64,000 nucleotides of DNA. Source: Bermanella marisrubri. Lineage in GTDB: Bacteria > Pseudomonadota > Gammaproteobacteria > Pseudomonadales > Oceanobacteraceae. This document shows positions 14,776 to 52,760 of this stretch, piece by piece. The DNA lies in NCBI RefSeq assembly GCF_012295615.1, contig NZ_CP051183.1, forward strand, positions 2,817,001 to 2,881,000, given 5' to 3'. The translations under genes and the position numbers were made by a program. Position 1 is the first letter of the stretch. Each line of letters opens with the position of its first letter. The notes below the pieces were generated by a model that did not search any database, was not told where the DNA came from, and saw nothing but the letters and a program-made list of their open reading frames with translations.

Positions 14776-15546
14776 TTAAGATTTGGTATTTGCTTCATCA
14801 TCCAGCGCATTCCGCAACTTAGGCAATTCGCCTGTGCATTCTTTATGACCAAGATCTCCTAGGGCGCTACTCATGCGATCAATCTTTGCATCAACAGCAT
14901 GCATGTGATCTAAAAGATTATGGATTGAGCGAGCAATTGGATCTGGCATTTCATCTGTCATACCGTAGGCATCAAAGCCAATTTTATCCGCCATGGCTTG
15001 ACGACGACGATCCTGTTCATCAGATGCTTTTTCTTTTTTAACAACAATGCGACCCGGAATGCCGACCGCCGTTGCTCCGTCAGGAACCGCTTTGGTTACT
15101 ACAGCATTGCTGCCAACCCGTGCGTTTTCGCCTATTTCTACTGGCCCTAGCACCTTAGCTCCTGCACCGATGACAACACCATCCTTTAGAGTTGGGTGAC
15201 GTTTACCCGCTTTCCAAGACGTGCCACCAAGGGTGACGCCATGATAAAGCGTGACGTTATCACCAATCTCAGCCGTTTCACCGATCACCACACCCATGCC
15301 GTGATCAATAAAAAAACCCTTACCGATTTTAGCGCCTGGGTGGATTTCAATTCCCGTAAACCAGCGGCTCATGAAGCTGACAAATCGTGCAGGGTATTTC
15401 AGACCGTGATTCCAACACCAGTGAGCAAAGCGGTAATGCATTAGCGCGTGCAACCCTGGATAGGTCGTCAGCACTTCAAATGTATTACGGGCAGCAGGGT
15501 CCCGATCAAAAACGCATTTTATGTCTTCGCGTATGGTGGTAAACAC
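14776..15546 (-). CDS. cysE: Serine O-acetyltransferase CysE
   Basis: CysE acetylates L-serine from acetyl-CoA to make O-acetylserine, the committed step of cysteine synthesis. The 256-residue protein has the N-terminal helical domain and a left-handed beta-helix of hexapeptide repeats: [41 protein letters not shown] and [12 protein letters not shown]. The active-site aspartate/histidine pair region ([11 protein letters not shown]) is intact. It lies downstream of trmJ on the same strand, as in Pseudomonas, but the iscR-iscS genes that normally follow are absent. Confidence 0.96.
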
Positions 15547-16472: not shown

Positions 16473-17255
16473 ATGCAACCCATGGTCAACCTAGCCCTGC
16501 GTGTCCTTCGTGATGCTGGCCAAGAGCTGGTCCACGCAGTGGAGCGTTTCGATTTCGAACGCGCTTCAGATCAGGAAATCAGCAAATTCATTGCCGACTG
16601 TGCCATTGGTACCGAGAAGCAAATTATCTTTAAACTGCGTAAACACTTCGCAAACGACAGCTTTGAAGGCCGCGAAACAGGTCGCAAAGATGCTGAAGAA
16701 CCCAGTGGTACGGTATGGCATATCAGCCCTATCGAAGGCCAAGAAAACTTCCGCACAGGTTTTCCTTGCTTCAGCATGGTTATTGCCTGCCAAGTGAACG
16801 GAAAAACCGAGCATGCGATTGTAGTAAACCCAGTTACCGGTCAAGAATTCACTGCCACTCGCGGTCGCGGCACCGAAATGAATGGTCGCCGCATGCGTAC
16901 CGGCGAGAAGACCAAGATCAATCAAGCCATGCTTGGCGTTAAATTCCCAGGTATTGCGCAAAATGAGCAAAATGACCGCATTCGTCAGCGCATCAGTAAG
17001 CTGGCCCAAGAAACTCGCATGATTCGCGCTATGGGTGACGATGCTCTTAGCCTTGCACATCTTGCAGCAGGCCACTTAGACGCTGTTTGGTTAAGCCGCG
17101 TTGATAGCACTGCCCTCCAAGCTGGAGCACTATTAGCGAAAGAAGCAGGCTGCCTACTGACTGATTTTAGTGGTGGTGCTCATTATGAAGCAGACGGCGA
17201 CGTTATCGCCGCCAACCCTAAGCTCATCAAGAGCTTAATTAAAGCTTCAATCTAA
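16473..17255 (+). CDS. suhB: SuhB orthologue lacking catalytic residues
   Basis: This is the inositol-monophosphatase-family protein at the conserved suhB position, divergent from trmJ. In E. coli SuhB has a second role in the NusA/NusB/NusE/NusG antitermination complex on rRNA operons. The fold is recognisable from MQPMVNLALR at the N terminus to TDFSGG near the C terminus. The Mg-binding residues are gone: the usual GEES is GRET (residues 66-69), DPLDGT is SPIEGQ (residues 85-90), and the Asp of WDxAAG is replaced in TALQAG. It should be inactive as a phosphatase; retention in place suggests the Nus-factor role is what is kept. A second, intact family member lies at 49812-50615. Confidence 0.88.
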   Translation: MQPMVNLALRVLRDAGQELVHAVERFDFERASDQEISKFIADCAIGTEKQIIFKLRKHFANDSFEGRETGRKDAEEPSGTVWHISPIEGQENFRTGFPCFSMVIACQVNGKTEHAIVVNPVTGQEFTATRGRGTEMNGRRMRTGEKTKINQAMLGVKFPGIAQNEQNDRIRQRISKLAQETRMIRAMGDDALSLAHLAAGHLDAVWLSRVDSTALQAGALLAKEAGCLLTDFSGGAHYEADGDVIAANPKLIKSLIKASI

Positions 17256-48642: not shown

Positions 48643-48661
48643 ATTGCTAGAAATAACTGCT

Positions 48662-49147
48662 ATGCCCAATATTCAATGCATCATCGCCGACTACCAAAAC
48701 CCACAGCACGGATCCGATCTTGTGTTTTTACTCAATAGCTATGCTCTCGATCCAATGGGAGGTGGTGAACCTTTGAATAAAGACGTGCAAGAAGGCTTGC
48801 CTCATGCGCTTGCTCAACGTCCCCATGCCATGAGTATTCTATGTTATGTGGATGATCAGCCAGCCGGCTTAATAAATACCTTTGAAGGTTTTTCAACCTT
48901 TAAATGTAAACCTCTGATTAATATTCATGACGTGGTTGTGCATAAGGATTTCCGTGGATTAAAGCTCAGCCAAGTCATGCTCGATTATCTGGAAAATATC
49001 GCCAGAGAAAAAGGCTGCTGCAAACTGACACTGGAAGTAATAGAAGGCAATAAAGTTGCACAAAACGCCTATAACAAGTTTGGCTTTAGTGGTTATGAGA
49101 TGGATCCACAATTTGGTCAAGCCATGTTTTGGGAAAAAGCACTTTGA
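48662..49147 (+). CDS. GNAT-family N-acetyltransferase
   Basis: This 161-residue protein has the GNAT fold: motif A region INIHDVVVHKDFRGLKLSQVMLDYL (the RGxG/A-type acetyl-CoA loop is RGLKLS) and motif B ITLEV-like KLTLEVIEGNKVAQNAYNKFGF. The target is unknown. The start at 48662 (MPNIQCIIADY) is preferred over an upstream TTG. Its stop overlaps the start of the next gene (TTGA), so the two are coupled. Confidence 0.88.
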   Translation: MPNIQCIIADYQNPQHGSDLVFLLNSYALDPMGGGEPLNKDVQEGLPHALAQRPHAMSILCYVDDQPAGLINTFEGFSTFKCKPLINIHDVVVHKDFRGLKLSQVMLDYLENIAREKGCCKLTLEVIEGNKVAQNAYNKFGFSGYEMDPQFGQAMFWEKAL

Positions 49148-49797
49148 TCGATCAGCTAAACACGCTCATTAAAACGATGTTAGCGGATGCCTTTGTCAGC
49201 CCTCAAGCATTACCGCAATGTCCGAATATTGAACTGTATCTAGTAGACCCATCTACCATGACGCGGGCTTTCTCTTTGGATGAAATTCGATCCATTTGGG
49301 AAAACACCGCGTATTGGGCCTTTTGCTGGGCTAGTGGCCAGGTTTTAGCGAAATATATTCTTGATCACCCCGAATGGGTACGTGGTAAACGTGTTTTAGA
49401 TTTCGGCGCTGGGTCTGGTATTGTTGCCATAGCCGCAAAAAAAGCCGGCGCGACTAGTGTCATAGCTTGCGACATTGACCCAGATGCTTTAATCAGCTGC
49501 CAAGCTAACGCTCAATTAAACAACATAGAACTTATTACCAGCGATGATCTATTCGCGCTTGATAAACATAGCTTTGACTGCTTGATTGCAGCCGATGTTT
49601 TATACGATAGAAGCAACCTGAGTTTTCTAGATCAGTTCTTCGACTATGCGCCAGAGGTTCTGTTAGCCGATTCTCGAATCAAGGACTTTAGTCACACTCA
49701 CTATACTCACTTAAACAGAATCGAATCATTCACTGTGCCCGACCTTGATGAGTTGGACGAGTTTCGCTGGGTTAATTTGTATCAGGGCAAACGGTAA
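49144..49797 (+). CDS. ETFB/Nnt1-like class I methyltransferase
   Basis: This 217-residue SAM-dependent methyltransferase resembles the ETFB lysine methyltransferase/Nnt1 group: VLDFGAGSGIVAIAAKKAGA (SAM-binding motif I), VIACDIDPDALISCQANAQLNN (motif II) and DCLIAADVLYDRSNL. Human ETFBKMT methylates lysines of the electron-transfer flavoprotein; bacterial relatives act on ETF beta. Start is uncertain: TTG at 49144 overlaps the GNAT stop, while ATG at 49177 would remove 11 residues. No etf genes are in the window. Confidence 0.85.
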   Translation: MIDQLNTLIKTMLADAFVSPQALPQCPNIELYLVDPSTMTRAFSLDEIRSIWENTAYWAFCWASGQVLAKYILDHPEWVRGKRVLDFGAGSGIVAIAAKKAGATSVIACDIDPDALISCQANAQLNNIELITSDDLFALDKHSFDCLIAADVLYDRSNLSFLDQFFDYAPEVLLADSRIKDFSHTHYTHLNRIESFTVPDLDELDEFRWVNLYQGKR

Positions 49798-49811: not shown

Positions 49812-50615
49812 ATGCATTCAATCACATCTACGTTGGAGTTTGCTCAGCAAACCGCTAGGGAAGCAGGTGAATTAATAAAACGGTTACGTCAAAGTGAGTT
49901 ACGCACAGATTTTAAAAAAGGTATCGAACTGGTTACCAATGCCGATACCGAAGCGGATCGCTTTATTCGTCAATGCATAGAGCGTGAATACCCTGATCAC
50001 CAAATACTGGCAGAAGAAAGTAATCCAGATTTGGATAGCATTGAGTTTGATGGTCGCTGTGTCTGGGTCGTAGATCCCATTGATGGCACTGTGAACTATG
50101 CCCATAATCATGCTCAAGTTGCCGTTAGTATTGCACTAATCATTGATGGCAATATCGAAATTGGCGTTGTATATAACCCGTTTACGGACGAGCTTTTTCA
50201 CGCTCAAAAATCCAAAGGTGCATTTCTCAATAATCGACCTATCAGTGCCAGTGATAAACAAGATTTAGAACGTGCGATCATAGCAACAGGCTTTCCATAC
50301 AACAAACAAGCCCAGTTACCAATATTAATAAACCGACTACACAAAGTCCTACAACATGTGGCTGATGTAAGACGATTAGGTAGTGCTGCGCTAGACATTT
50401 GCTGGGTCGCCTGCGGTCGACTGGATGCCTATTATGAAAGCGTCAGTTTGTGGGATTGTGCAGCAGGCTTACTCATTGCTTCGGAAGCCGGCGTACAATG
50501 TGGCCATTTCATCAAACCGGAATCCACGCAGTACGCTCACTTAGAATCGAAACACTTATTATTGTCCAACCACCAACTCTACCCAGCTATAGAAGAGATT
50601 CTACGAAACACTTAA
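49812..50615 (+). CDS. Inositol monophosphatase-family phosphatase
   Basis: This 267-residue Mg-dependent phosphatase retains the active-site residues that the SuhB protein at 16473 has lost: AEESN (Glu for metal 1), VDPIDGTVNYAH (two Asps and Thr), and LWDCAAG (third Asp). It should hydrolyse inositol phosphates or similar sugar phosphates; CysQ-like 3'-phosphoadenosine activity is an alternative. It follows the methyltransferase by 14 bases. It may supply the phosphatase activity missing from the SuhB orthologue. Confidence 0.9.
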   Translation: MHSITSTLEFAQQTAREAGELIKRLRQSELRTDFKKGIELVTNADTEADRFIRQCIEREYPDHQILAEESNPDLDSIEFDGRCVWVVDPIDGTVNYAHNHAQVAVSIALIIDGNIEIGVVYNPFTDELFHAQKSKGAFLNNRPISASDKQDLERAIIATGFPYNKQAQLPILINRLHKVLQHVADVRRLGSAALDICWVACGRLDAYYESVSLWDCAAGLLIASEAGVQCGHFIKPESTQYAHLESKHLLLSNHQLYPAIEEILRNT

Positions 50616-50635: not shown

Positions 50636-51664
50636 CTATTGAGACTTGTCATCAGCCATTAATTCATAAGCGCGCAAACGGACTTGCTCGTTTTCGTCAA
50701 ACTGACTTTTTAAGTCATCGATGGCGCTGCTTTTTTCTGAGGCAGTTAATTGCTGGTTTTCCAATATCCTACTACGCTCTGATAGATAAACGTTCACTTC
50801 ATCAATAAACTGATTACGTTTCTCTTCTACTTGTTGCAACCGAATAGCAGCTTCTTGTCCAAATTCTTGCTGATGATACTCAAATATTTCATCTTCAGTT
50901 TTTCCACTTTGTCGATATTCCTGCGTTTGTTTATATACATCACTGATATGTTGCGTTTCTTTGTGTAGCTGCCTAACTTCCTGCGGCAAACTATTTTTTA
51001 ATGATTCAATTTGTGCTTGTTGCTGCGCTTGCGTGAGTTGAGTGTTATTCAGAATCTGTAAACGACTAAGCATGTACTCATCATACGATTCATCAAAACC
51101 AAAGAACGCATTAACCGCCTCCTCGGATAAATATTGACGTCTCACTGACTGCATATCATATAAACGCTGACGCATGGCTTCGATGTCTTGTATTTCATAC
51201 ATGGCAGGAGCTTCTGCTGCTTGCTCTAAAGCAATTAATGCCTTTTTATAACTAATGTAATTGTCGAGAAGCTGTAACGCTTGGGATTGGGCAGGTTCTT
51301 GCAGCTGGCTACGAATATCTGCTTGGATAAGCTGAATAATTTCAGCCAACTCTAGCTCCCCTAGTGTTGAAAGAAAGTATTCAAAACGATCTCGAATGCG
51401 GTCACTTAAAATTAACTGGCCCTGTTCATCTACTGGATAGGCACCATCAGTATCTGTGCCTTTTAGCGACAAGCTTTGTTTTTTCTCGTACGACAGAACC
51501 TCTTTAGGTGAAGATAGAATGTGTTTGGCAACATCCTTGCCTTGGATTAATGTGTCTGACAATGGTTTTTGGTTATTGTCGTCCAGCTCAACCACAGTGA
51601 CCGACTGCTTGATCGCCAAAAGCGATAAAATAACCACTGCACAAAATACCAACCATTTCCACAT
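50636..51664 (-). CDS. lifO: Lipase foldase (secretion chaperone) LifO
   Basis: Lif is the membrane-anchored steric chaperone needed to fold family I.1/I.2 lipases in the periplasm before type II export. The 342-residue protein has an N-terminal anchor (KWLVFCAVVILSLLAI), the conserved SLKGTDTDG motif near residue 67 and long helical repeats (QQQAQIESLKNSLPQEV, LQQVEEKRNQFIDEVNVYL). It lies downstream of lipA with a terminator hairpin between them. Confidence 0.92.
   Translation of the reverse strand: MWKWLVFCAVVILSLLAIKQSVTVVELDDNNQKPLSDTLIQGKDVAKHILSSPKEVLSYEKKQSLSLKGTDTDGAYPVDEQGQLILSDRIRDRFEYFLSTLGELELAEIIQLIQADIRSQLQEPAQSQALQLLDNYISYKKALIALEQAAEAPAMYEIQDIEAMRQRLYDMQSVRRQYLSEEAVNAFFGFDESYDEYMLSRLQILNNTQLTQAQQQAQIESLKNSLPQEVRQLHKETQHISDVYKQTQEYRQSGKTEDEIFEYHQQEFGQEAAIRLQQVEEKRNQFIDEVNVYLSERSRILENQQLTASEKSSAIDDLKSQFDENEQVRLRAYELMADDKSQ

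Positions 51665-51743: not shown

Positions 51744-52760
<1,017 letters not shown>

Follow-up and report, generated by a model that had tools for sequence, protein, structure and literature searches.

Whether the enzyme activity of SuhB is needed for making rRNA is a question that has so far rested on work in E. coli. According to excerpts of PMC6614801, E. coli SuhB binds both NusA, at its AR2 domain, and the rRNA signal and is required for recruitment of NusB/NusE, and an excerpt of PMC10250234 describes the SuhB dimer as the hub of the rrn complex. An active-site point mutant of E. coli SuhB is phosphatase-dead yet does its cellular job, and the phosphatase activity is reported as dispensable for the suhB phenotypes (PMC2834668, PMC6614801, both in excerpt), in agreement with what an earlier sequence-only reading of the present locus had stated as known. 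Singh et al. (PMC4807359) argue that the main job of the complex is rRNA maturation and not prevention of termination, which makes "Nus factor" a safer name than "antiterminator". The E. coli mutant was made in the laboratory, whereas a SuhB with a dead-looking site is, as described below, the natural state of many species. Species in which the active site had been given up on two or more occasions would amount to a natural experiment on the question, and dead SuhBs would offer ready-made separation-of-function proteins. The question is raised here by a gene of Bermanella marisrubri whose product stands at the conserved suhB position and looks catalytically dead. The window referred to throughout is the whole stretch of 64,000 nucleotides analysed (contig NZ_CP051183.1, positions 2,817,001 to 2,881,000). 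Features of the locus, in window coordinates, are as follows.

16473 to 17255, plus strand: suhB orthologue without the IMPase metal site, proposed to be a pure Nus factor; 260 amino acids, ATG start.
16671 to 16682, plus strand: codons 67-70, RETG in place of EESG, within GRETG; E67 becomes R (alignment).
16725 to 16742, plus strand: codons 85-90, SPIEGQ in place of DPLDGT (alignment).
17109 to 17126, plus strand: codons 213-218, TALQAG in place of WDFAAG (alignment).
17229 to 17240, plus strand: codons 253-256, KSLI; K253 and I256 correspond to K251 and L254 of the E. coli NusA-AR2 hot spot (alignment, PMC6614801).
15599 to 16360, minus strand: trmJ, divergent and upstream of suhB, marking the suhB position (synteny).
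14776 to 15546, minus strand: cysE-like gene beyond trmJ, further synteny.

Alignment to E. coli SuhB was used to follow the four metal ligands, which change from E67 to R67, D84 to S85, D87 to E88 and D212 to A214. Three of the four are thus gone and the fourth is an Asp to Glu replacement. Further changes in the site are D44 to A44, T89 to Q90 and W211 to T213; positions 44 and 89 have catalytic roles in E. coli SuhB. The sequence-only reading had placed GRET, SPIEGQ and TALQAG at the motif sites, and all three strings are correct, but its statement that all metal ligands are gone was slightly too strong, as the Glu that replaces D87 could still bind a cation. This residue is Asp in 25 of 31 relatives from the window's own family (f1).

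Both the conserved position and the predicted fold are kept, as had been claimed. In E. coli trmJ is likewise divergent from suhB. The protein matches PF00459, and with it the IMPase fold, at 123.6 bits (cut-off 27), and is one of three PF00459 matches in the window genome (2 contigs, 99.99% complete), the other two being the protein of 49812-50615 and a CysQ-like protein. A phmmer search against solved structures returned Nus factor SuhB chains as the best match (9j90, E 2.7e-50), followed by E. coli SuhB. A structure predicted from a 21-sequence alignment had a mean pLDDT of 75.6 and was weak over residues 145-163, 180-186 and 251-260, the last of these being the AR2-binding helix with pLDDT below 50. 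Fold search with this model ranked P. aeruginosa SuhB first (TM 0.83, 37% identity), with the E. coli SuhB of the antitermination complex next. P. aeruginosa SuhB (PDB 8WDQ, 9J90) is accordingly the nearest solved structure by both sequence and fold; unlike the window protein it carries DPLDGT and GEEG, and inositol-1-phosphate is present in one entry. In the SuhB tree the window protein groups among SuhB, apart from the paralogues. The protein scored 153 bits against the NCBIfam model PRK10757, below the curated cut-off of 332 bits, in a model narrow enough to be passed in only 1 of 14 control genomes. Of the PROSITE motifs PS00629 and PS00630, as defined in an excerpt of PMC2834668, neither matched any of the 90 degenerate proteins described below, the window SuhB among them, while one or both are present in all 53 intact SuhB proteins, E. 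coli included (PS00629 in 48, PS00630 in 50), and in 37 of 38 paralogues.

Candidate partners of a Nus factor are also found in the genome. NusA has an AR2 domain, and GATCTTTAAAAA followed by GTGTGGG was found in both 16S leaders, of which one belongs to a partial 16S match; the core TCTTTAAAA is common to both and TTCTTTAAAAA lies in the spacer after the first 16S match. These leader elements may be called boxA and boxC. Neither rRNA leader was matched by a stricter pattern modelled on the E. coli boxA consensus. At the NusA-AR2 hot spot, which in E. coli was tested by changing K251 and L254 together (PMC6614801, in excerpt), the lysine is the same (K253) and I256 is a conservative change. 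The likeness to E. coli SuhB (PDB 6IB8, 6TQN) takes in the adjoining trmJ, the predicted fold, the hot-spot lysine, the AR2 domain of NusA and the boxA-like signals. Set against this are the lack of E67, D84, D212, the other site residues and Arg184, the Glu at D87, and a C-terminal tail that is shorter past position 256.

On these grounds we put the probability at roughly 0.8 that this is a genuine SuhB orthologue that is no longer a metal-dependent phosphatase and has been kept as a structural Nus factor. For the window protein we infer binding to NusA, function at the rRNA operons and a lack of phosphatase activity. SuhB would probably form a dimer hub that binds NusA AR2, and the dimer would probably help to load NusB/NusE onto boxA of the rRNA leader. 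Dead relatives of enzymes that are kept as scaffolds are known as pseudoenzymes. The window protein resembles these in its kept fold, its apparent loss of catalysis and a binding role that is proposed to persist, and differs from pseudoenzymes in general in that the non-enzyme role of its live orthologue lies in a known transcription complex.

A gene on its way out could look similar at the active site, and a decaying pseudogene whose phosphatase duty is met elsewhere would agree with the site having eroded differently between families. Conservation within f1 makes such decay most improbable. A search of 34 f1 genomes, the window's own included, gave a full-length degenerate SuhB sequenced from beside trmJ in 31; one genome (G004) held a partial copy and two (G002, G006) gave none. 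In all 31 orthologues position 67 is Arg and no more than one of the four ligands survives, and GRETG is invariant in 21 aligned members. SuhB of f1 is under strong purifying selection, with dN/dS of 0-0.108 across 13 pairs, all from f1 and some with dS above 1.5; in 10 of the 11 pairs that allow the comparison, TrmJ has the higher dN/dS. The residues of an F-[IV]-x-D motif at the former active site are nearly invariant in the family as well. This invariance, together with that of GRETG, is what would be expected if the former pocket were a ligand sensor tuning the Nus complex and not an empty scaffold. Packing would explain it equally, however, and GRETG is not common to the other families with degenerate SuhB, and we regard a sensor as unlikely.

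The spread of the loss was evaluated in the order by searching 244 genomes with the window protein, which gave a match at 1e-18 in 227 and none in the other 17. Degenerate and intact SuhB were not told apart by bit score alone and were for this reason classified by sequence. In 108 SuhB proteins sequenced from 41 families, two or fewer ligands were found in 56 and all four in 52, while no protein had three. Sampling was uneven, and the fraction of 56/108 is no prevalence, since the sample was enriched for low scorers, the first sequenced set consisting of 30 chosen genomes nearly all of which scored low against the window protein. The intact set thus comprises 52 proteins from the order, or 53 with E. 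coli; L180 and L181, which are other IMPases not beside trmJ, and L072, which is incomplete in sequence, were left out. Degenerate SuhB occurs in 8 of the 41 families (f1, f6, f7, f20, f26, f36, f37 and f43), f43 holding both kinds, and 34 further proteins from f43 brought the degenerate set to 90. The survey of related genomes that the sequence-only reading had called for found loss of the metal site both within the family and well beyond it. trmJ was present in the locus of all 56 degenerate proteins, divergent in every case, and of 43 of the 53 intact ones. No earlier report of a dead SuhB was found by title or abstract start among the open-licence papers listed. As a separate observation, 8 of 11 sampled f15 genomes had no SuhB match at 1e-18, and the two f15 proteins seen (L181, L091) represent a different kind of IMPase; SuhB itself may therefore be missing from f15.

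Which ligands survive differs by lineage. E67 is retained in 2 of 3 and D87 in 3 of 3 proteins of f37, D84 in the degenerate SuhB of f26 and f43, and D212 in 5 of 6 (f6), 3 of 4 (f20) and 5 of 5 (f36). In fact every metal ligand survives in some lineage, while residue 89 is changed in nearly all degenerate SuhB. This pattern fits a piecemeal decay that would have followed the loss of catalysis. It also bears on whether the protein might be a phosphatase or sugar-phosphate binder in which a remodelled site still uses metal. E88 remains (Asp in most of f1), and the invariance of GRETG and other new residues means that the old pocket is under constraint. Against that, the protein differs from E. 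coli SuhB at three of the four ligands and at positions 44 and 89, and the replacements vary by family where one conserved new chemistry would predict otherwise, which renders metal use by a remodelled site distinctly unlikely, more so than the ligand sensor. One replacement does recur, as Arg67 is found in 75 of the 90 degenerate proteins and in all of those from f1, f26, f36 and f43.

The number of origins was investigated with RpoB, SuhB and TrmJ trees. On a quick RpoB tree of 54 rows, computed with a simple model and one outgroup row, a single clade of all 26 degenerate rows was rejected (AU p 0.0041). After removal of the two f43 rows a single degenerate clade was not rejected (p 0.497) and the tree constrained to it was slightly better. 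With these rows in place, RpoB rejects one common origin for degenerate SuhB. The SuhB tree joins the degenerate proteins of f43 to the intact ones of that family (support 95) and gathers the 12 other degenerate proteins sampled into one clade (support 98) with f37 basal; this tree kept the active-site columns, and its long degenerate branches may pull degenerate rows together. The RpoB test and the placement of the f43 proteins support at least two independent losses of the SuhB metal site in the order. A TrmJ tree of 84 rows suggested 6 changes, of which well-supported branches force only 1, and was not used for the count. Within f43, the TrmJ tree splits 35 degenerate rows from 18 intact rows by one branch (support 99), which indicates one event in that family. 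The proposal of a natural separation-of-function case is thus supported, but in a form that is wide and arose at least twice and is not one organism's own.

The sequence-only reading had further proposed that the two roles of SuhB are split here between two genes, the second being the following.

49812 to 50615, plus strand: IMPase-like protein of 267 amino acids from a separate clade, with an intact metal site and P/E in place of the hot-spot residues.

As had been stated, this intact paralogue lies some 33 kb away (32.6 kb) and carries AEES, DPIDGT and WDCAAG. If the claim is read as one of a recent paralogue of SuhB it fails, as the tree puts the protein in a clade of 38 (support 99) well apart from SuhB and so rules out a recent duplicate. 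Three other IMPases branch beside this clade, one of them from G053, a genome with intact SuhB. A search of 63 genomes, one of them unclassified, was performed with the window paralogue as query, and members of its clade scored 195.8 bits or more; G099 (f37), in which SuhB was not sequenced, was left out of the resulting table. Where SuhB is degenerate, 20 of 30 genomes had the paralogue; where it is intact, none of 32 did (Fisher's p 3e-9, descent ignored). At lower scores, G053 holds a more distant relative (118 bits) and G042 a weak second match (75 bits). A tree-based pair test gave three independent pairs, two to three agreeing and none opposite, with a median p of 0.25. The co-occurrence was repeated in f43, where 59 genomes were searched and SuhB was sequenced in 54. 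The paralogue was confirmed by sequence in 33 of the 36 degenerate genomes (genera g50, g66, g116 and g117; exceptions G274, G313 and G316) and was seen in none of the 18 intact ones (g110, g114 and g115), with a further match in G293 left out; in 16 of these the other match was CysQ and in G301 there was none. G307 was counted as degenerate via locus L334. The link rests on two transitions, one of them inside f43.

The division of roles stands in part. It draws support from the co-occurrence, but the paralogue is missing from 10 of the 30 degenerate genomes (G011, G018, G019, G058, G069, G079, G148, G176, G189 and G214), and the phosphatase therefore need not pass to this protein. In the f1 search, five g6 genomes had no member of the paralogue clade, one untyped 179-residue piece aside; such a PF00459 piece in G023 (L071) matches the paralogue and CysQ equally well, at about 50 bits. 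The roles might also have been divided the other way round, with the paralogue as Nus factor and the protein at the suhB position doing something else. The paralogue does outscore the window SuhB on the NCBIfam E. coli-type SuhB model, at 173 against 153 bits. Its absence from those 10 genomes, and its lack of K251 and of most other residues particular to SuhB, leave this arrangement hardly tenable.

In order to sort these residues, all 267 positions were compared between intact SuhB, degenerate SuhB and the paralogue on the sole basis of conservation, each family being given the same weight. Twelve positions are kept in intact and degenerate SuhB and not in the paralogue: P3, A11, R13, E48, E112, H113, E124, R139, R141, A193, A197 and K251. 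Fifteen are kept in intact SuhB and the paralogue and not in degenerate SuhB: K34, V40, D44, E67, E68, D84, T89, S102, T155, G156, R184, A188, E205, W211 and A214. Comparison of dead SuhB, live SuhB and paralogue in this way needs no structure to tell the residues of the enzyme from those particular to SuhB, and the latter include the only NusA hot spot tested so far. All 90 degenerate proteins carry K or R at position 251, as opposed to K in 2 of 38 paralogues, and position 254 is mostly L, I or V; K251 ranks 24th of 267 positions for retention and is therefore not uniquely kept. R141 is Arg in 90 of 90 degenerate proteins and R139 is Arg or Lys in 90 of 90. E112 and P3 are less well retained in f43, and in the window protein itself positions 11 and 254 are V and I.

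Arg184 has been lost from all 90 degenerate proteins and is absent from the intact SuhB of f43 too. In E. coli SuhB this residue is tied to the dimer and to RNAP binding. The 18 intact f43 loci (L308 among them) have all four metal ligands and no Arg listed at 184, so that residue 184 can go while the metal site stays.

Beyond the window protein itself we lean, by a small degree, towards a broader scheme for the order. SuhB would have switched at least twice to an enzyme-dead, pure Nus factor, accompanied by a separate catalytic IMPase clade; Glu67 to Arg would have arisen in parallel as a built-in cation; and R13, E48, E112, H113, E124, R139, R141 and K251 would predict the Nus surface. The conflicting demands of catalysis and transcription on a single protein would then be settled by dividing the jobs over two genes. 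Acquisition of a separate IMPase may have freed SuhB from catalysis, and wherever the cell needs phosphatase activity, a protein such as that of 49812-50615 may provide it. After this release the site would have decayed differently in each lineage. As far as can be judged from sequence, the Arg at position 67, in at least two lineages of independent origin, perhaps substitutes for the charge of the metal. Annotation of such genes as inositol monophosphatases, metabolic models included, is probably wrong for many species.

Several minor observations concern these genes and their surroundings. Contig 15 of G307 (L303) carries a second, trmJ-linked and intact-looking suhB, perhaps from contamination (3% for the assembly). 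The paralogue of G009 (L274) has Ala for the first Asp of DPIDGT, and its site may be going too. In the window, as read from translations, co-oriented acetyltransferase-like and methyltransferase-like genes (48644-49797) lie directly upstream of the paralogue, perhaps in one operon with it, and lipase-chaperone-like (50636-51664) and secreted-lipase-like (51744-52688) genes adjoin it on the opposite strand.
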